From Phycisphaerales bacterium Planc_01 (GTDB taxonomy: Bacteria > Planctomycetota > Phycisphaerae > Sedimentisphaerales > Anaerobacaceae): DNA of 33,375 nucleotides. A program made the translations under genes and the position numbers. The notes beneath the pieces are model-generated. The model searched no databases. It was given only the letters and a program-made list of their open reading frames with translations, and was not told the origin of the DNA. Positions within the stretch are counted from its first letter, which is position 1. The number at the start of each line of letters is the position of its first letter. Where the stretch lies: positions 1 to 33,375 of the forward strand of contig LVBB01000070.1 of assembly GCA_001603075.1 (NCBI GenBank), given 5' to 3'. Of the stretch, positions 14,336 to 22,296 are shown in pieces.

Positions 14336-15280
14336 ATGAAAGCAGTGGTCACCGGCGCGGCGGGGTTCATCGGATCGCATCTGACCGAACGTCTGCTCCA
14401 GGACGGTCATGCCGTTATCGGCATCGACAGTTTCGATACGTTTTACGATCCGCAGATCAAGCGGCGCAACATCGCCAAGGCCCTTTCGCACCGGAGCTTT
14501 CGTCTCATAGAGGCCGACATCCGCGACCAGGCGGCGATGGAGCGGGCCATCGGTGACGACATCGATGTGATCGTGCACCTGGCGGCACGGGCCGGCGTGC
14601 GGCCTTCGATCGAACAGCCCGCCCTTTACGCCGACGTCAATATCAACGGGACGGTCGTCCTGTTGGAGATCGCGCGCGCCCGCCGCATCAAGAAGTTCGT
14701 CTTCGCGTCGAGTTCAAGCGTCTACGGCAACAACAAGAAGGTCCCATTCTGCGAAACCGACAACGTTGATTTTCCGATCTCGCCGTACGCCGCAACCAAG
14801 AAGGCAGGCGAACTGATCTGTCACACATACCACCACCTTTACGGCATCGGTATGACGTGTCTGCGTTTCTTCACGGTCTACGGGCCGAGGCAGCGCCCCG
14901 ACCTGGCGATCCACAAGTTCGCCCGGCTCATCGAGGCCGGCAAGCCCATCCCGATCTATGGCGACGGCACCATGCGGCGCGATTTCACCTACATTGATGA
15001 CATCATCAATGGCATCGTCGCAGCCATCGAACGTTGCGCCGGCTACAGTATCTACAACCTGGGCGAATCGCGTCCCATCTGCGTCAGCGATCTGATTGCC
15101 GAGATCGAGAAAGCCCTCGGCAAAACGGCCGGCAGGGATTACCTGCCCACTCAGCCCGGAGACGTTGACCAGACCTACGCCGACGTGGCCAAGGCCCAGC
15201 ACGAACTGGGTTACCAACCCGCGACCCACATTGCCGACGGTTTGGCCGAGTTCGTTCGATGGTTCCGGAGCCCGGCCTGA
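14336..15280 (+). CDS. NAD-dependent epimerase, UDP-glucuronate 4-epimerase-like
   Basis: The 314-residue product is an extended short-chain dehydrogenase. It has the Rossmann motif VTGAAGFIGSHL, a GIDSFDTFYDPQIKRRNI segment typical of UDP-glucuronate 4-epimerases (the F/Y-Y-D-P-x-L/I-K motif), HLAARAGVRPSIEQP, FASSSSVYG, catalytic SPYAATKKAGE (Tyr-x3-Lys), and a C-terminal FTYIDDIINGI and YNLGESRPI. It probably interconverts UDP-GlcA and UDP-GalA. GGGGAG precedes ATG 14336. It forms an operon with the kinase and galU genes. The main alternative is a UDP-glucose 4-epimerase. The terminal codons are followed by a convergent amidase gene 77 bp away. Confidence 0.88.
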   Translation: MKAVVTGAAGFIGSHLTERLLQDGHAVIGIDSFDTFYDPQIKRRNIAKALSHRSFRLIEADIRDQAAMERAIGDDIDVIVHLAARAGVRPSIEQPALYADVNINGTVVLLEIARARRIKKFVFASSSSVYGNNKKVPFCETDNVDFPISPYAATKKAGELICHTYHHLYGIGMTCLRFFTVYGPRQRPDLAIHKFARLIEAGKPIPIYGDGTMRRDFTYIDDIINGIVAAIERCAGYSIYNLGESRPICVSDLIAEIEKALGKTAGRDYLPTQPGDVDQTYADVAKAQHELGYQPATHIADGLAEFVRWFRSPA

Positions 15281-15357
15281 TACGATTGGACGTCTGGCGC
15301 AAGGGCGTCGAAGCGGGTGTGGAAGTTGTGTTCGGGCCGGAGCGCCAGAGGCGGGCG

Positions 15358-16269
15358 TTATTGCAGGTAGTCGATAATTCCTGCGGCGATCGCCGCCGCC
15401 AGCTTGTCCTGGAAGGCGCTGTCTTGCAGCCGCAGGGCGTCCTGGCGGTTGGAAAGATATCCCATCTCCACGAGCACGGCGGGTCTGCGGTTCGTCACGA
15501 GCACGCGGTAGTTTTCCTGACGCACGCCTCGGCTCTCCAGGCCCGTCGTGGCCATGGCTCGCGCAATATCGCGGGCGGCGCGCTGAGAATCGGCAGATGC
15601 TGTCTTGGCGACGTACACGGTGAAACCCTGGGCCGAGGGGTTGGGGGCCGAATCGGCATGGAGGCTTACGAACAGATCGGCGTTGCGTCGGGCGGCGATC
15701 TCGGCTCGCGCCTCCAACTCGGGGAATACGTCTCCCTGCCTGGTCAACACGACTTCGATGCCCCTGCGCCGCAAAATGGCGGCGACCTTCTGCGCGACGT
15801 CGTAGTTGACGATCTTCTCATGGATTCCCGTGACCGCGATGGCGCCCGGGTCGTGGCCGCCGTGGCCGGGGTCGATGACGACGATGCCGCGCGCCGGGCG
15901 GGGCTGCGGGCGGGCCGGCGTTACGGATGTGCCGAGGTGGGGCTTGATCTGTGCAGCCAGCGACTCAGAAACGTAGACGGTCCCGGACACCTTGCGGACC
16001 GTGCCCACCGTGCCGATCGGGGTGCCGTTGACGAAAAACCGGCCGTCGCTGTGCGTGAAGATCAGCACGGTGTTGGCGGCGTCCCGCAGGACGACGAAGG
16101 TCTCGTCGCGATCGTCGATCCGCAGGCCCAGTTGTCGGGCCAGTTCCTCGACGCTGATGGTGTGGTCTCTGGTGACCACGGCGGGTGTGGTGGTCTGCGG
16201 GCCCTGGCAGCCGACGGCCGCCAGGGCCAGAATGGCTGCAACGATTGTGATCTTCGTCCTTGTCTTCAT
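15358..16269 (-). CDS. Lipoprotein N-acetylmuramoyl-L-alanine amidase (Amidase_3)
   Basis: The 303-residue product has an N-terminal signal with lipobox-like AAVGC (Cys21), a region (about 30-115) with a Cu-amine-oxidase-N-like beta fold (FFVNGTPIGTVG), a Pro-rich linker, and then the Amidase_3 catalytic domain. Zinc ligands and catalytic residues are visible: IDPGHGGHDPGA (His), GIHEKIVNYDVAQ (Glu), SLHADSAPN (His) and VLVEMGYLSN (catalytic Glu). It cuts the amide bond between muramic acid and the peptide in peptidoglycan, tethered at the membrane. ATG 16269 has GAGG upstream. It is monocistronic, convergent with the epimerase gene. Confidence 0.93.
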   Translation of the reverse strand: MKTRTKITIVAAILALAAVGCQGPQTTTPAVVTRDHTISVEELARQLGLRIDDRDETFVVLRDAANTVLIFTHSDGRFFVNGTPIGTVGTVRKVSGTVYVSESLAAQIKPHLGTSVTPARPQPRPARGIVVIDPGHGGHDPGAIAVTGIHEKIVNYDVAQKVAAILRRRGIEVVLTRQGDVFPELEARAEIAARRNADLFVSLHADSAPNPSAQGFTVYVAKTASADSQRAARDIARAMATTGLESRGVRQENYRVLVTNRRPAVLVEMGYLSNRQDALRLQDSAFQDKLAAAIAAGIIDYLQ

Positions 16270-16477
16270 GTAACCTCTGTTATCGGAGGAGGCGGCTTCA
16301 TGCGCACACATTTTCTGATTGTACCCGATGCGGAGGACGTTGGGAAGCCGCTGGGACGCATTTGACGACCCCTCGCCGGTTCGCCGTTGGTTCTCGATAC
16401 GCCCTCGGCGGGGATGGAAAACACCGCCATTCCGATGGGAGAAGCTATGGACAACCGACCCGGTCGTCCCGGATGCG
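16270..16477. other. Gap between amidase and dockerin genes, weak hairpin
   Basis: Nothing coding is seen. GGACAACCG (16449-16457) can pair with CGGTCGTCC (16461-16469) with one mismatch just after the stop of the dockerin gene, so it may terminate the minus-strand metal operon, but it lacks a T tract. Confidence 0.3.
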
Positions 16478-17275
16478 TCATTTGCCCGCGGGACCCCGCC
16501 AGTTGCGGGCCATGTGAGCGAAATCGAGCAGGTTCACGACGCCGTCGCGATTCGTGTCGGCCCGTTCCCAGAAGTCGTTTCGCCTTGCGGCATCCGGCCG
16601 TAGCCAATGGTGCGACAACGCCGCCAGGTCGGCGAGGCCCACGACACCGTCCACGAGGAGGTCGCCGGCGAGAGGTTCGACGTTGAAGACGATGGTGAAC
16701 GGTTCCGAGGGCTCATATAGCCCCCGTTCGTCGTAAAGCCGATAGGTGATCCAGTGCAGGTTCTCGCCGTCGACAGCCTGATAGGATAGGTGCATGTGTC
16801 CGTCGCCGCGAAGGGCGTAGATGGAGCTGTGGTCGAAACTCTCGCCGGCACCGGCAATTGTGAACTGGGGGTACTCTTTGTGCACGGCCCTCAGTCCTTC
16901 GGATACAGCGATGCATTCGACGATCACGGCGTAGTCGAGGCCGGGTTCCCCGGTCAGCGCGCGGTTGGGGTCGTAGGTGTGCGGGGCATTCGCAGTGGTG
17001 CGCTGGAAGGCGTCGAAGCCCGGCTCGCCGATGCGGTAACCGTAGCTCGAGAAGATGCTCTTCTGCAGGGGATAGAACCACTCGACATATTCGGTCGGTC
17101 CGCTGTGGCGGTATTTCTGGGAGACGTCTGCGAACAGAATCCAATCGTCTTCGGTGCCCTCAATGCCGTCCGGGTTGCAGCCGATGAGGAAATGATCGAG
17201 GGGACACTGGGCCTGGGCTGTCGTGCCGCACGACAGACAGATCAACGCAACGCCTGTCAGAATGACGAGTCTCAT
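16478..17275 (-). CDS. Exported dockerin-like protein, last gene of the Zur-type operon
   Basis: Residues 1-23 form a signal peptide ending AQAQ. The mature part begins with a Cys pair (CPLDHFLIGC) and has a His-containing beta region (HSSIYALRGDGHMHLSYQAV, then NLHWITYRLYDE). The C-terminus carries two dockerin-type repeats: VDGVVGLADLAALSHHW and DTNRDGVVNLLDFAHMARNW, the second with the full Asp-x-Asn-x-Asp-Gly calcium loop. It starts 15 bp after the pseudopilin stop, with AGGAAGGA overlapping the gap, so both are on one message. The central domain is not recognised; the repeated His residues raise the possibility of metal binding. Length 265 residues. Confidence 0.8.
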   Translation of the reverse strand: MRLVILTGVALICLSCGTTAQAQCPLDHFLIGCNPDGIEGTEDDWILFADVSQKYRHSGPTEYVEWFYPLQKSIFSSYGYRIGEPGFDAFQRTTANAPHTYDPNRALTGEPGLDYAVIVECIAVSEGLRAVHKEYPQFTIAGAGESFDHSSIYALRGDGHMHLSYQAVDGENLHWITYRLYDERGLYEPSEPFTIVFNVEPLAGDLLVDGVVGLADLAALSHHWLRPDAARRNDFWERADTNRDGVVNLLDFAHMARNWRGPAGK

Positions 17276-17290
17276 GTTTCTGTTCCTTCC

Positions 17291-18067
17291 TCAGGGGTTC
17301 TCCGGCCATTTCGGCGCCGTCTCGGGGTACCAGTAGCAGTCGCCGGGCCACGAGTAGGTTCGTTCGAACGGCAGCCCTTCGGCGTGCCCGTCGGCGAAGA
17401 GGTAATTCGACGTCCCCTTATGCCGGTCCCAGGCGATGGACTGTCTGGCGTATTCGATGGACCCTTCCCACATGTCGGGATGGATGTGGTCGGCAAGATC
17501 GAAGCTCTCGGTTTCCGGCGCCTCGCTGATCCAGATGGTATACATCGGCCGACGAATGCTGTTGACGTTGTTGTAGCGGTTGCTGTTCGGCCCGTAGCGG
17601 AAGTGGACAGGATCGAGCAGGGCGTTGACAGCGAAGCTCGAATACCGGGCCTGCTGCTGTTCACTGAGCGGGCGGTTCCAGTCGACAAATGCCTTGCCCC
17701 TGTCGCTCGGGCAGCGGACCAGAAGCGGCTCGCGCGTGTAGCCGGTCAGGACGCGGAGCCAGTGCTCGTTCGGGTCTCTGGACCGGCACGAACTCGGCGG
17801 CAGTCGATATTCCGAGTCGATCAAATACGCCTGGAGCGCGACGCCCATCTGCCGCAGGTTGCTCAGACACGCGATTTTCCTCGCCTGTTCGCGGGCCCGG
17901 CTCAGCGACGGCAACAGAATCCCCATCAGCAGCGCGATGATCGCGACGACCACCAGCAACTCAATCAGCGTAAACCCGAGTCTGGCGAAAGAACCGGACC
18001 GGGGGTGTCCGCGGACGCCCCCAATCCCTTTGTACGTCGGTCCGTCTGGCGATGATTCCCTTCGCAT
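17291..18067 (-). CDS. Pseudopilin-like protein, second copy in the window
   Basis: The 258-residue product carries the prepilin motif [20 protein letters not shown] preceded by an unusually long leader (about 30 residues if ATG 18067 is right). The post-helix segment ([20 protein letters not shown]) and the C-terminal [19 protein letters not shown], i.e. an H-X(9)-DG signature, place it in the planctomycete pseudopilin group. It lies 23 bp after the His-tailed dockerin gene and 15 bp before the next dockerin gene. It may present or help export the flanking dockerin proteins. Less similar to the pseudopilin at 6652 outside the leader and the tail. Confidence 0.85.
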
Positions 18068-18090
18068 GATCGTCCCTTCACTCTGCAGGC

Positions 18091-19023
18091 CTAATTATCG
18101 TGATCGTGCTCACGGTCATGGTCGTGTGGCTCCGCGTCTTCGCCATGATAGATACCGGACTTGCCCCAGTTCTCTATGAGAATCGCAAAGTCATGGATAT
18201 CCACGATGCCGTCGCCGTTGAGATCGCCGGGAATCGGCTGGATTACGGTCCTGGCGAATCGCAGGACGTAATCAGCGGAGCGCTCGTACATCTCGCCGGC
18301 GTCGTGGGCCGACACGACGATGTAGACCTCTTCGTCGTCTTCGTCGAGCCAGAAGTGGAAGCCCATGTGGTCGTGGATGCCCCAGGCGTTCATGTCGGTC
18401 AGCCAGCGCTTTGCAAGGAAATGGACGGCCCCGTCGACCTCCAGTACCGGCGTGTCGTCGGGCAGCAGCATGAAGAAATCATCCTCGTTTAGATTGACGC
18501 TGACCCGTTCGCGACGCAGGTAGATCTCCCATTCCGGGACAATGGTCTCGTCGATGCTCTCCATGTTCCACGCCCCTTGCGGACCATGGGCCGAATGCCA
18601 GCCGTCCACATGCAGCAGGCCGCTCGCATCGCCGTAGCCGTTCGCCTTGGTGTACTGGAAGTTGCAGGTGTACAGAACCTTGGTCGGCTCGCCGGGTTTC
18701 GTAATGGGTTGTCCCTCGTCGAGCACGGGGCTCAGCATGAGAAAGGTCGTGCCGTTGCTCTGCTCCCAGTTCGGCCAGCCCGGCGTGGCTGAGGCGTGGC
18801 TTGGCGGCAAAGAAAAGAACCATAGCTTGCTGTTGTCCGTCGGGTCTGGATCGGTAGCCCCTTCTCCCGGTCGGCCCCAGTCGGCGGGACGCCAGGTCGG
18901 GTTGATCCCGATATGTGTGTGTGCCGTGGCGCAGGCGGCCTGTGCCGCGGTCGGGAAAGCAACGAGGATGGCCCCGCCAAACAGCAGGCCAAGGAAGACG
19001 AATTTGCCTTTTCGTATCATCAT
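18091..19023 (-). CDS. Exported protein with dockerin repeat and His/Asp-rich tail, putative metal binder
   Basis: A signal peptide (MMIRKGKF, hydrophobic core, AAQAA site) is followed by a mature N-terminus with [14 protein letters not shown]. The roughly 200-residue middle contains many His and acidic residues ([31 protein letters not shown]). One dockerin-type repeat, [21 protein letters not shown], comes next, and the protein ends in [18 protein letters not shown], a likely zinc- or nickel-binding tail. GAGGAG lies before ATG 19023; upstream in-frame codons extend into the intergenic region and are not used. It sits downstream of the Zur-type regulator, so I infer an extracellular metal-capture role. 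The middle domain is not recognised. Length 310 residues. Confidence 0.78.
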
Positions 19024-19165
19024 GTTCACTCCTCTGTGTAAGCGGTGGATAGGTGGAATCGCCGTTCTTCGGCGAGTCAGGTTCATTCGGGATCGCGATG
19101 CGCCTGTGCGGCAGATATCCCCGTTCAACGCGGGCGACAGTCCGTTCCGATGCGGCGCAGGGGTG

Positions 19166-19486
19166 TTATGCAGGGGGAGCGCGGGCGCCAAGGTTCAGGG
19201 CGGCGGTCAGCGGCAGGGGGGCGTCGAGAAAGACGTTGATGCACCGGCCGATCCGGTCGGTTTCGATGTGGAGCGGTTGAGCCGGGGCGGCGAAGTCTTT
19301 CATCGCCACGAGCAACTGTTGGCAGAAGGAACAGTGCTCGGAATCGTGTTGCAGCGGGTCGTGGTCGCACTGATGATCGCCGTGGTGAGCGGCATGCAGG
19401 TGGAGGTAGAGCACGAACCCCGAGGTCATCGCCAGGAAGCACCCGGCGGCGGACAGCAGAACGGCATGTCGCAGAGGCGACCTCAC
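19166..19486 (-). CDS. Small His/Cys-rich membrane protein in the Zur-type operon
   Basis: The 106-residue product has one hydrophobic segment (about residues 8-30), after which follow HLHAAHHGDHQCDHD and SEHCSFCQ, giving eight His and three Cys within 30 residues, a plausible metal site on the outer face of the membrane. The start is GTG 19486: AGGAG overlaps the stop of the regulator gene, leaving 12 bp between the genes. The C-terminal half is uncharged and unrecognised. It could be a metallochaperone for the His-rich permease. The 142 bp to the next gene contain a small hairpin (TCGCCG-N5-CGGCGA near 19059-19075). Confidence 0.7.
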   Translation of the reverse strand: MRSPLRHAVLLSAAGCFLAMTSGFVLYLHLHAAHHGDHQCDHDPLQHDSEHCSFCQQLLVAMKDFAAPAQPLHIETDRIGRCINVFLDAPLPLTAALNLGARAPPA

Positions 19487-19498
19487 CCGGTTACGCTC

Positions 19499-19921
19499 CT
19501 ATGTGCAGGCAGGGCAAAGCCCTTCGAGCCGCACCTGTTGATGCTGGATCACAAACCCCTTGTAGGATTTCGGCGCCAGGGGCATCGAAAACCCCTTGAG
19601 GCAGTGGGTCTGCCCGCAGTTCAGGCACGTGAAATGCGGGTGGCACTGGCTGGCGGTGCAATGATGGGCCATCTCGAAATGCCAGGCTCGCTTCTGCATA
19701 AACGCACGATGGACCAGTCCGGCATGGGTCAGCGATTCGAGCGTTCGGTAGATCGTCACCTTGTTTCGCGTTCGGTCGGTGAGCTGCTCGGCGATCTGGT
19801 CCTGCCGCAGGGGCCGGACGGCCTCCGAGAGGACTTTCAGGATCGCCACGCGTGCCTCGGTGCAGTACAAGCTCGCCTGTTTGAGCATTCGTCGGCATTC
19901 GTCATCAAGATTGGCTCTCAT
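19499..19921 (-). CDS. Fur-family regulator, Zur-like
   Basis: A 140-residue Fur-fold protein. Residues 1-80 are the winged helix (TEARVAILKVLSEAVRPLRQ; KVTIYRTLESLTHAGLVHR), followed by the dimerisation domain with the metal residues HHCTASQCHPHFTCLNCGQTHC and a terminal GLCPAC. The two CxxC pairs (CLNC and CPAC) are the structural zinc site; the GLCPAC ending resembles Zur more than Fur. The ATG overlaps the stop of the permease gene (4 bases), and a palindrome overlaps the operon promoter, so it is probably an autoregulated zinc sensor. Fur, PerR or Nur specificity cannot be excluded from the sequence. Confidence 0.9.
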   Translation of the reverse strand: MRANLDDECRRMLKQASLYCTEARVAILKVLSEAVRPLRQDQIAEQLTDRTRNKVTIYRTLESLTHAGLVHRAFMQKRAWHFEMAHHCTASQCHPHFTCLNCGQTHCLKGFSMPLAPKSYKGFVIQHQQVRLEGLCPACT

Positions 19922-20682
19922 GAGACAGCCTCCGGCTCCGATTCGCCATGCGCGTGCATGTGCACGTGCGAATACGGTGGGGCAGATTTGACGAACAGCA
20001 GCGGAAAGACGATGTCGCTGATACAACAGGGCAGCCAGACCGCGATGAACAGGACGACGAAGATACCGACGAGCATTGTGGCCGTCAATTCGGCATGGGT
20101 GTTCATCAGGATATGGAATGAGGAAGCCCACGTGCTGACCAGGACGTGGCCGGCGTGGGGGAAGGTGGTGCGAGGCCAGAAATAGGCGATGAAAATCCCC
20201 AGCAGGGCGGCGGGATTGACTACGTGCCAATCCTCGATAAAACCCAAGTGCAGTCGCGGCCGAACGGCACAGCCCTCGTGAGAATGGTCGTCATGGGCGG
20301 TTGCGCCATGATCGTGATCGTCGGCGGGCCCGCTGCCATGGTGGAGGTCCGCATGCGTCGGCAGCGCCACACCCAGGATGGTCTCACCAAAATAAGGCAG
20401 CACGCAGTCGCTTACGGTGGCTACGCCCACGGCCCCGAGATAGCCGATGACCAGCAGTTTGATCAGACTGGTCTTCTTTTCGTAACGCTTGAAAAGAGAG
20501 GCGGTTACGATGGCAGAAAGGACGACGTGGGCCGGGTGGAACACCAGGAAGAGCCGGTGGTTGACTGCTTGCCCTGCATTGTGGAACAGGAGCATGCAGA
20601 CGATTCCCGTCGCTGCCCCGAAGAGGGTGAAGGGGGCATGGTGTTTCAGTTCCAGACCGATCGCCGCAATTCGTCCCCGCAT
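19918..20682 (-). CDS. His-rich multi-pass membrane protein, putative metal permease
   Basis: The 254-residue product has about five or six hydrophobic segments (approximately residues 15-35, 43-64, 72-94, 155-170, 185-230). Between the third and fourth lies a His-rich loop (residues 110-138) with eight His and a Cys, including DDHDHGATAHDDHSHEGC, and the tail has SHVHMHAHGE. Conserved-looking polar residues in the membrane are H49, H52 and the pair CC219-220. I do not recognise the family. First gene of the operon with a Zur-like regulator, it may move zinc, but transport is inferred. Start uncertain: ATG 20682 is chosen; TTG 20688 or GTG 20703 in the same frame are closer to TTAGGA. Confidence 0.75.
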   Translation of the reverse strand: MRGRIAAIGLELKHHAPFTLFGAATGIVCMLLFHNAGQAVNHRLFLVFHPAHVVLSAIVTASLFKRYEKKTSLIKLLVIGYLGAVGVATVSDCVLPYFGETILGVALPTHADLHHGSGPADDHDHGATAHDDHSHEGCAVRPRLHLGFIEDWHVVNPAALLGIFIAYFWPRTTFPHAGHVLVSTWASSFHILMNTHAELTATMLVGIFVVLFIAVWLPCCISDIVFPLLFVKSAPPYSHVHMHAHGESEPEAVS

Positions 20683-20734
20683 AGTCAATCGCCATCCTAA
20701 CACTCAATCATCGTTACTGTATCTTCGCACGATC

Positions 20735-20773
20735 ATTATAGGAGGTTCGGCCGAAAATGCAACTTAGTTTCAT
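20735..20773 (-). promoter_or_regulatory. Promoter with Fur-family (Zur-like) operator for the His-rich operon
   Basis: On the minus strand a perfect TATAAT (20740-20735) lies 16 bp from TTGCAT (20762-20757). The -35 is inside the 17-bp palindrome ATGAAACTAAGTTGCAT (20773-20757), which has 7-3-7 symmetry with one mismatch. The size and form fit a Fur-family box, and its overlap with the -35 implies repression by the regulator of the same operon. Confidence 0.65.
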
Positions 20774-20828
20774 ATTTTTCGGGCCCGCTTTTGTTTCGTA
20801 GGATTTGGGTATGACGCGGCGGTGTTGT

Positions 20829-20845
20829 TCCGCAGATTCTGCGGA
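20829..20845. repeat. Short inverted repeat between the divergent units
   Basis: TCCGCAG-ATT-CTGCGGA is a perfect 7-bp hairpin between the Zur-type operon and the ccdA-like gene. It lies in the leader of the plus-strand gene; a role is not evident. Confidence 0.4.
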
Positions 20846-20948
20846 TCGGCAATGTGGCCTCGTCGCAGCCGGCTCAGTACAGGGCCAGAGGGGCCGGATC
20901 GGAGCATTGCATGGAACCCGAAATGGATCATCGTTGAAGGCGGATACA

Positions 20949-21662
20949 GTGATTTCGACAATCGACAGACTGATCGGCGAGTCCCCTGTATGGGCGCTGT
21001 TCGTTGTGTTCTGGATCGGGGCGGTGGCGTCGGTCAGCTCGTGCACGGCCATTCGCCTGCCGGTGGTGATTGGATACGTGGCCGGCGCCGGATCGTCGAA
21101 GAAGCGTGCCATCCTCCTGACGTGCCTGTTTGCGGCCGGACTGATCGTTAGCCATGTCCTCGTCGGCGCCGCCATGATGACGGTCGGCGGCGTCGCAGGC
21201 AAGTTGCTGAATCTCAACAAATACCTTTTCTGGTTCCTGGGTGTTCTGCTGATTGTGATCGGCTTGTTCGTCTCGGGAATGGTGAACGTCAGGCTGCTGC
21301 CGGAGAAGTGGCAAAATCTCAGCTCCAGGCTGCACAAGGCCAATCTGGCCGGGGCGGGCCTGTTGGGGGTCGTCTTCGGTCTGTTGGTTGTGCCTGCCTG
21401 CCCGTGTTGCGGAGCGGGCCTGCTGATCTTGGCGGGCATCGCTGTGGCCAAGAAGCTGTCCGTCTACGGTCTGCTGTTGTTCATCAGTTTTGCACTCGGA
21501 CAGAGCCTGTCGGTCCTGGCCGTCGGCGTGCTGACGGCGTTGGTGAAGCCGGATGTGATCGATCGGGCCCGAGCCAGAATCTGTTCGTTCGAAGAACGGA
21601 TTCACCTGATCGCCGGCAACGTGCTGATGGTGGTCGGCATCTACCTCATTGTTGTGGGATAA
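20949..21662 (+). CDS. CcdA/DsbD-like membrane thiol-redox protein
   Basis: A 237-residue protein with about six transmembrane segments in two internally related halves, as in CcdA. The first half has SSCTAIRLPVVIGYVAG and the second VVPACPCCGAGLLILAG; each places a Cys near a Pro in the first helix of the half, as in CcdA. CcdA passes electrons from cytoplasmic thioredoxin to periplasmic thiol proteins (cytochrome c maturation and others). The second half has three Cys (CPCC) rather than one, which is unusual. The start is GTG 20949 with GAAGGCGG upstream; the longer frame from 20805 has no sense in its first 45 codons. Divergent from the Zur-type operon, so possibly under the same operator. 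The next gene begins 10 bp after. Confidence 0.8.
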   Translation: MISTIDRLIGESPVWALFVVFWIGAVASVSSCTAIRLPVVIGYVAGAGSSKKRAILLTCLFAAGLIVSHVLVGAAMMTVGGVAGKLLNLNKYLFWFLGVLLIVIGLFVSGMVNVRLLPEKWQNLSSRLHKANLAGAGLLGVVFGLLVVPACPCCGAGLLILAGIAVAKKLSVYGLLLFISFALGQSLSVLAVGVLTALVKPDVIDRARARICSFEERIHLIAGNVLMVVGIYLIVVG

Positions 21663-21672
21663 CGGGGGCGAT

Positions 21673-22296
21673 ATGGCGGAAGGGCAGGTCATCTATCCCA
21701 AGCCTCGCCGGGACCGACAGGAATGCCGGGACCTGGTGGCCAAAGGGGCGTATAGCATCATCTTCGTCGTAGTGGCCCTGATCGTGATCCGGCCGCTGAT
21801 GGTCAACCAGATCCTCAGTCGGGCCGACGCCTATTCGGCGTTCCGTCTCCATGACGAGGCCAAACGACAGTGTGACAAGGTTCTGCTCATCGATGCGGAC
21901 AACAGTCACGCATGGTATCTGCTGGCCTGTATCCACAAGGCATGGGGCGATCGCGATGCGGCCTATGGAGCCTATCAGAGGGCGACCGAAGCCGACCCCG
22001 CCAACGTGCCGGCCAATTTCGAGCTGGCGCTGATGTACGTCCAGGACGGTCAGCCACAACAGGCGGTCCCCTATTTCGATCAGGTGCGCCAGGTCGAGTC
22101 CGCTCGTGCCCATCAGCCGGCACCGGAGAGGTTCGCCTACCACAGGGCCGCTCTCGATATGCTCGTATTGTGCTACGAGAAGGTGGGCGACCCGACGAAA
22201 GCCGCATTCACACGCGAAGAGCTTCGCGTTTTCTATCCGCACCATACGCAGGTGGGCGAGTCTTCGACCACCTCGACGGAAGAACGGCCCGGCTGA
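21673..22296 (+). CDS. Membrane-anchored TPR-repeat protein
   Basis: The 207-residue product has one hydrophobic segment (residues about 27-46: AYSIIFVVVALIVIRPLMVN) followed by TPR-like helices: RLHDEAKRQCDKVLLIDADN, HAWYLLACIHKAWGDRDAAY, ANVPANFELALMYVQDGQPQ. TPR proteins act as scaffolds; with a single N-terminal anchor the repeats probably face the periplasm. It begins 10 bp after the CcdA-like gene, so the two may be a thiol-redox or cytochrome-c assembly pair, as TPR proteins accompany CcdA in some Ccs systems. The first 26 residues are highly charged. It is not recognised further. Confidence 0.75.
   Translation: MAEGQVIYPKPRRDRQECRDLVAKGAYSIIFVVVALIVIRPLMVNQILSRADAYSAFRLHDEAKRQCDKVLLIDADNSHAWYLLACIHKAWGDRDAAYGAYQRATEADPANVPANFELALMYVQDGQPQQAVPYFDQVRQVESARAHQPAPERFAYHRAALDMLVLCYEKVGDPTKAAFTREELRVFYPHHTQVGESSTTSTEERPG

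Follow-up and report, generated by a model that had tools for sequence, protein, structure and literature searches.

On contig LVBB01000070.1 of Phycisphaerales bacterium Planc_01 (assembly GCA_001603075.1), the 33,375-nucleotide stretch analysed here, called the window, carries between positions 16478 and 20773 six minus-strand genes and an upstream palindrome, which we read, with a probability of about two in three, as a zinc-acquisition operon controlled by a Zur-type repressor and including proteins that gather zinc at the surface. In the order of transcription, the genes code for a His-rich membrane protein (PERM), a Fur-family regulator (FUR), a small His/Cys-rich membrane protein (SMHC), and a triad composed of a secreted protein (DOC1), a pseudopilin (PPIL), and a second secreted protein (DOC2). 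FUR is probably a Zur-type protein with a box of its own, zinc is the likeliest metal, and PERM, from a family not yet described, probably imports zinc, so that the comparisons reported below suggest an unrecognised way to gather zinc at the cell surface. The initial annotation had taken the six genes for one apparatus. This has to be revised: the core consists of PERM and FUR, behind which at least three cassettes alternate; the triad is one of these and is also found apart in 14 cases.

The comparison of upstream regions relied on 81 PERM loci, namely, the best 80 of 584 confirmed matches and the window; these loci are related, and p-values drawn from them overstate their independence. Their upstream regions share a palindrome, TTGCAACTnAGTTGCAA, which fits the 7-1-7 format of Fur-family boxes. 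In the window, it occupies 20757–20773, where the minus strand reads ATGAAACTAAGTTGCAT with one mismatch to the 15-base core, and it ends 16 bases ahead of a TATAAT at 20740–20735, thereby covering the -35 region. Six of the 81 loci were dropped for short flanks. Among the 75 usable ones, a box with up to three mismatches was found in 61 of the 64 bearing FUR and in none of the 11 lacking it (Fisher p 7e-11, uncorrected for relatedness), and 46 of the 61 boxes have the exact 15-base core. The shuffles used for box counts, here and at the separate triads described below, keep base composition only; in shuffled upstream regions, a box appeared in 18 of 1500 trials. One FUR-bearing locus, L171, is counted as box-less, though a box lies 134 bases inside its overlong open reading frame (ORF). 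The source genome has four places with at most three mismatches in 17, only 20757–20773 being outside ORFs of at least 80 residues, and FUR may serve only its own operon there. Scanning 15200–21000 for promoter and terminator patterns gave chance-level results (two promoter-like places against 1.2 in shuffles, and three terminator-like places against 4.0), and the simple promoter scan did not report the TATAAT place beside the palindrome. On genomic grounds, 20757–20773 is well supported as a predicted Zur box.

The metal is suggested by the other genes ahead of which this box stands. A scan of 90 genomes, allowing one mismatch at most, yielded at least 34 sites among the matches listed, as counted by eye. 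Twenty-nine of them are just upstream of PERM, two precede a ZIP gene, one lies between znuABC-type genes and an SO_0444-like/TIGR03943 pair, one precedes a cassette of pilin and choice-of-anchor-M genes, and one is located at a contig end beside one of the usual flanking genes. In genome G004, which belongs to the same genus, four sites were found, the first ahead of PERM, the second between a ZnuA/ZnuC/ZnuB-type set and an SO_0444-like and TIGR03943 permease pair, and the third ahead of a pseudopilin gene, behind which two choice-of-anchor-M proteins are encoded, including a His-rich one. The fourth, whose core has no mismatch, heads a cluster coding for a small protein rich in histidine (below the DUF2946 cut-off at 20.6 bits), a ZepA protein (NF040463, 175 bits, cut-off 75), DOC1, PPIL, and DOC2. 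Furthermore, four PERM-FUR operons also include ZnuA-type genes and genes for ABC-3 permeases further downstream, plus a porin-like gene named by eye. G015 and G010 have no PERM, and there the box is followed by a ZIP-family gene (PF02535, 57–59 bits, cut-off 35.1) and then by FUR. This order is found in G010, G015, G068, and, across two contigs, G066, with flanking genes that also occur beside PERM. ZIP homologues of at least 71% identity are present in 7 of 148 genomes, all 7 belonging to the 31 without a PERM match (Fisher 9.8e-6), a group that includes incomplete assemblies; a PERM match is absent from 14 of the 65 better assemblies. The znuABC-type, ZIP, and ZepA clusters behind the same box, together with the ZnuA/ABC-3 extensions, point to zinc uptake. 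Since a ZIP gene can occupy the place of PERM and zinc genes stand behind the same box, PERM would be the functional equal of a ZIP importer.

A 14-kb region at locus L163 (contig C95 of G144) contains a PERM-FUR-pilin-choice-of-anchor-M series, a second FUR-DOC1-PPIL-DOC2 unit, and ZnuA-like and SO_0444/TIGR03943-like genes, and so brings the bulk of the predicted regulon together. A small membrane segment rich in cysteine (CPCCGQPGCPG / CPFCAQTGCIGG) was noticed at L109 (4442–5686, in the N-terminal part of the ORF) and at L158 (4953–5219); it precedes a ZnuA gene in one genome, sits behind DOC2 in another, and possibly belongs to a further zinc-regulated protein. In the source genome, a prepilin-motif match occurs about 0.7 kb upstream of the second ZnuA-type gene (L288; G000:C128, 103753–105223), with no recognisable box.

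The regulator itself (19499–19921, minus strand) matches PF01475 with 44 bits (cut-off 23.1). Among 66 homologues, C88, C93, C99, C102, C136, and C139 are invariant, as are E83 and H94, while H71 and H96 are present in 98%. The structural Cys4 zinc site, formed by two CxxC motifs (C99, C102, C136, and C139), is kept in all 66. With regard to the sensor site of E. coli Zur (H77, C88, H96, and E111), the profile alignment places no cysteine of FUR on E. coli C88. The two other Fur proteins of the source genome adjoin a KatG-like and a ferritin-like gene, and FUR is therefore the best Zur candidate in this genome; the neighbours called 'ribF', KatG, and ferritin were named by eye, not by profile. 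The description of this gene as a Zur-like regulator is thus supported by the FUR domain, the Cys4 site, and the box ahead of zinc-uptake gene clusters in relatives.

PERM (19918–20682, minus strand, with an alternative GTG start possible at 20703) has homologues in 117 of 148 relatives; among 294 genomes sampled from the phylum, 29 contain one. It matches no Pfam family, the best being EpsG with 16.8 bits for a cut-off of 30.1; the Zip profile gave no match to it at E ≤ 1, and a search of PDB sequences with the PERM profile found nothing at E ≤ 1. The AlphaFold2 model displays seven helices with a mean predicted local distance difference test score (pLDDT) of 83.8, and Foldseek returned nothing for it at E ≤ 0.001. 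When compared with TRIC by VIA-align, the model reached Z 10.3 with a root-mean-square deviation of 3.0 over 132 residues, the best non-TRIC row being 6.8, in a range where helical bundles attain about 13 by arrangement alone. An internal repeat obtained 21% in hhalign compared with 16.6% for the best of 30 shuffles, and is not claimed. The proposal of a new permease agrees with the absence of any Pfam or NCBIfam family for PERM and with its seven predicted helices. We propose, from gene context, that PERM works like a ZIP importer without being one. PERM homologues lacking both FUR and the box are found at L203, L204, L205, L213, L224, L226, L227, L232, L243, and L247.

The second half of the operon consists of DOC1 (18091–19023), PPIL (17291–18067), and DOC2 (16478–17275), all on the minus strand. 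Freed of their signal peptides and dockerins, DOC1 and DOC2 align over 165 columns (hhalign 94.7%, score 54.6), and as this score is far above the maximum of 21.0 in 30 column-shuffles, they are considered paralogues. Both harbour conserved histidines, H35, H37, H217, and H219 in DOC1 and H28, H149, H160, and H162 in DOC2, which would fit a metal site. Of the two dockerin proteins announced by the initial annotation, DOC2 exceeds the Dockerin_1 cut-off of 22.9 with 29 bits, whereas the degenerate dockerin of DOC1, followed by a His/Asp tail, remains below it with 20.3 bits. This C-terminus is found in close relatives and gives way to PEP-CTERM in distant ones; 'dockerin' thus names only a C-terminal tail, replaceable by PEP-CTERM in DOC1. 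The predicted structure of DOC1 has a mean pLDDT of 56.7, and Foldseek gave nothing for it at E ≤ 0.001; the list was not used. Assignment of DOC1 and DOC2 to the ZepA family was rejected, with no NF040463 match at E ≤ 1 and hhalign values of 0.9–10.7% with one ZepA sequence; the ZepA profile weakly matches PEP-CTERM-type relatives of DOC1, with the C-terminal part of the profile only, which may reflect the PEP-CTERM motif. Assignment to the choice-of-anchor-M proteins was likewise rejected (hhalign below 1%). PPIL surpasses the cut-offs of N_methyl (26 bits, cut-off 21.2), DUF1559 (31.9 bits, cut-off 23.3), and H-X9-DG (22.4 bits), in agreement with its call as a pseudopilin, and keeps four cysteines and the H-X9-DG region.

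The initial annotation had suggested checking whether the permease and the His-tailed protein (DOC1) co-occur with the regulator. PERM does so in 64 of 75 loci, and the DOC1-DOC2 unit is present in 13 of the 67 FUR-bearing loci. FUR directly follows PERM in 38 of 41 neighbourhoods (40 relatives and the window), a subset of which also contains the DOC1-PPIL-DOC2 block in the same order, and the 80 named loci display the same pairing and triad pattern. The cassettes behind PERM-FUR in the 67 FUR-bearing loci comprise DOC1-DOC2 (13), a pilin with choice-of-anchor-M proteins (6), and ZnuA/ABC-3 (4), and the pairing of a pilin with a secreted, metal-linked protein under a Zur box seems to recur. 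Prepilin matches at E ≤ 0.01 number 94 in the source genome. Among the 53 FUR-bearing loci whose downstream flank is 3.5 kb or longer, 17 have a prepilin gene on the same strand within 4 kb downstream, a count that rises to 19 when the reach is extended, and the density of such genes behind PERM-FUR is 0.080 per kb and strand, compared with 0.0044 elsewhere in the same loci.

Triad homologues apart from the regulator and permease had been named in advance as contrary evidence. Fourteen triads away from the PERM operon were reached via DOC1 matches and ZepA-profile matches, including that of G144, which stands 5.4 kb behind a PERM operon, after a second regulator gene; the weak DOC1 matches G134 C433 and G041, L287 (no triad), and splits at contig ends (G073) were left out. 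The 14 separate triads argue against a link to PERM, but in favour of zinc control: in 11 of them, the 2 kb ahead of DOC1 contain a box with two mismatches or fewer (0–1.5% per locus in shuffles), and L164, which lies at a contig end with only 645 bases upstream, adjoins a FUR gene. L162 has a three-mismatch site in its 213 upstream bases. Since these 11 separate triads have their own box, the triad appears tied to the zinc switch and not to PERM.

Concerning the layout of the locus, the six minus-strand genes, their tight packing, and the single 142-bp gap were all confirmed, with gene-to-gene distances from PERM to DOC2 of -4, 12, 142, 23, and 15 bases in ORF coordinates, the first being a four-base overlap of PERM and FUR. 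SMHC (19166–19486, minus strand) is a real ORF with a GTG start codon and, in line with its description as a small His/Cys-rich membrane protein, matches DUF2946 above the cut-off (24.8 bits, cut-off 23.7). Identity to the triad of the window amounts to 81–93% in the nearest relatives and 25–57% in the most distant, L066. Close named relatives are planctomycete metagenome-assembled genomes, several of them labelled Sedimentisphaerales or Phycisphaerae; the source assembly has a size of 5.65 Mb and is 97% complete. Downstream, an Amidase_3 gene (15358–16311, minus strand, 185 bits), coding for an N-acetylmuramoyl-L-alanine amidase, is a possible seventh member of the operon. Such an amidase, which is a zinc enzyme, is encoded within 6.5 kb downstream in 26 of 67 FUR-bearing loci and in 0 of 14 FUR-less ones (18 of 44 against 0 of 8 when only loci with at least 6.5 kb downstream are considered). 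On the other side, a DsbD-like membrane protein gene (20805–21662, plus strand, PF13386, 45.5 bits, true start uncertain) diverges from the operon. The divergent DsbD-like and TPR genes (20805–22296, plus strand) recur beside the operon, also in two of the genomes with ZIP in place of PERM, and may share the operator region.

From these data, we infer zinc as the effector, inward transport, zinc binding by DOC1 and DOC2, and the job of the pilin. In the presence of ample zinc, Zur would bind 20757–20773 over the -35 region and keep the operon off, including its own gene; under zinc shortage, it would leave the box and allow transcription. PERM would act as an inner-membrane zinc importer, replaceable by a ZIP transporter, and SMHC perhaps as a zinc relay. 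DOC1 and DOC2 would be secreted and held at or outside the surface by their dockerin or PEP-CTERM tails, and the His/Asp tail of DOC1 could bind metal. Most likely, PPIL would either extrude them, in the manner of a type II secretion-like piston, or carry them on a short fibre, and zinc gathered outside would then be passed inwards to PERM. Strong indirect support within this scheme is confined to regulation and to the part played by PERM. The most specific form of this scheme, a pseudopilus induced by zinc starvation in which a dedicated pilin displays or extrudes a paralogous zinc-binding pair and delivers zinc to a permease belonging to a new family, is offered tentatively, with the odds leaning against it.

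Several findings weigh against zinc acquisition under Zur control. No box was found at the FUR-bearing loci L220 and L225, and the 11 usable PERM loci devoid of both FUR and box mean that PERM does not always depend on the regulator. The copy of the box in the source genome is imperfect, and two ZnuA-type loci there are without one. In three of the seven ZIP genomes (G077, G099, and G114), the ZIP gene has no adjoining box or FUR, and two weaker ZIP homologues (44% and 25%) occur in genomes with PERM. One separate triad, L286, has neither box nor FUR, and the cohesin profile PF00963 had no match at E ≤ 0.01 in the 97% complete assembly. In addition, Fur and PerR structures score about as well as E. 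coli Zur with the FUR profile, so the metal cannot be read from the FUR sequence alone, and the box TTGCAA-CTNAG-TTGCAA fits the consensus of the Streptomyces nickel regulator Nur, tTGCaa-N5-ttGCAA. These last two points favour the main rival with regard to regulation, in which FUR would be a Nur-like nickel sensor and the operon would take up nickel. We hold this to be unlikely, as the same box elsewhere fronts znuABC-type, ZIP, and ZepA-bearing clusters, and the five non-PERM places inspected among the listed sites showed no nickel gene, no nickel profile having been run. That PERM exports metal, or moves another one, is quite unlikely. The direction of transport is not readable from sequence, and one other box adjoins an SO_0444-like gene, below the model cut-off, of a family named for Cu/Zn efflux; on the other hand, a ZIP-family gene takes the place of PERM, and with a repressor of the Zur type, genes are switched on when metal is scarce and export would be pointless.

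A different question is whether the triad captures zinc at all, or whether, under the same zinc control, it remodels the surface at low zinc for attachment, biofilm, or matrix. Tails of the dockerin and PEP-CTERM types, a pilin, and a neighbouring amidase would also fit such a role, and neither DOC1 nor DOC2 matches the ZepA profile. We nevertheless find this version doubtful, since both proteins have conserved His sites and DOC1 a His/Asp tail, one triad cluster contains a ZepA gene, and choice-of-anchor-M or ZnuA/ABC-3 genes fill the same slot in other operons. Finally, planctomycete genomes are rich in both pilin and dockerin genes, as the prepilin matches of the source genome illustrate, and the two kinds might have met here by chance. 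Such chance adjacency is very improbable, and was rejected given the recurrence across relatives, with order kept across families, the boxes at separate triads, and the prepilin density behind PERM-FUR.

With zinc acquisition under Zur control retained as the preferred reading, the operon can be set beside known systems. It resembles Zur regulons (ZnuABC, ZIP, and COG0701/TIGR03943 permeases) in its regulator type, the 7-1-7 palindrome, and the recurrence of one box ahead of several member genes, and differs from them in the new permease family that comes first and in the pilin and secreted-protein cassettes. Choice-of-anchor-M proteins and proteins of anchored-repeat ABC transporters are also surface proteins linked to metal transport by their model names; those encountered here stand behind the same box, beside another pseudopilin, with no detectable homology to DOC1 or DOC2. 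PPIL shares the N_methyl, DUF1559, and H-X9-DG matches of planctomycete DUF1559 pseudopilins, but its subgroup stays together with DOC1 and DOC2 as one genetic unit and is linked to the zinc box. The closest precedent is ZepA (All3515), described in PMC10957091 as mediating zinc uptake in Anabaena, a direct Zur target, and encoded near Fur-family genes in Planctomycetes–Verrucomicrobia–Chlamydiae (PVC) bacteria; it is secreted, carries a C-terminal sorting tail, and has amidase, ZnuA, and ZupT genes among its neighbours. The likeness thus concerns a Zur-controlled secreted protein with a sorting tail and Fur-family and amidase neighbours, and one triad cluster holds a ZepA gene. In contrast, DOC1 and DOC2 of the window have neither an NF040463 match nor, as judged by eye, the H-X2-9-H-F/Y-H motif, and they have a pseudopilin between them. 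The main text of PMC10957091 does not contain the strings 'pilin', 'pilus', or 'dockerin'. Searches of the open-licence literature brought up nothing joining Zur, zinc, and pseudopilins in this way, judging by titles and abstracts, and the titles listed for planctomycete Zur zinc uptake included none on that subject (PMC3919588 and PMC4219657 were also consulted). The new parts within Zur-controlled zinc acquisition are therefore the permease family and the pilin-centred triad.

If the proposed scheme is true, this would be, to our knowledge, the first pilus-like device for metal-ion uptake under Zur control. Planctomycetes would gain a testable zinc-uptake system with an operator and a predicted regulon, as well as a candidate zinc-importer family shared by most of the relatives surveyed. 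It would also connect a lack of zinc with a dedicated pseudopilin and a pair of secreted proteins, and open the function of one prepilin-motif gene, out of 94 in this genome, to direct testing.

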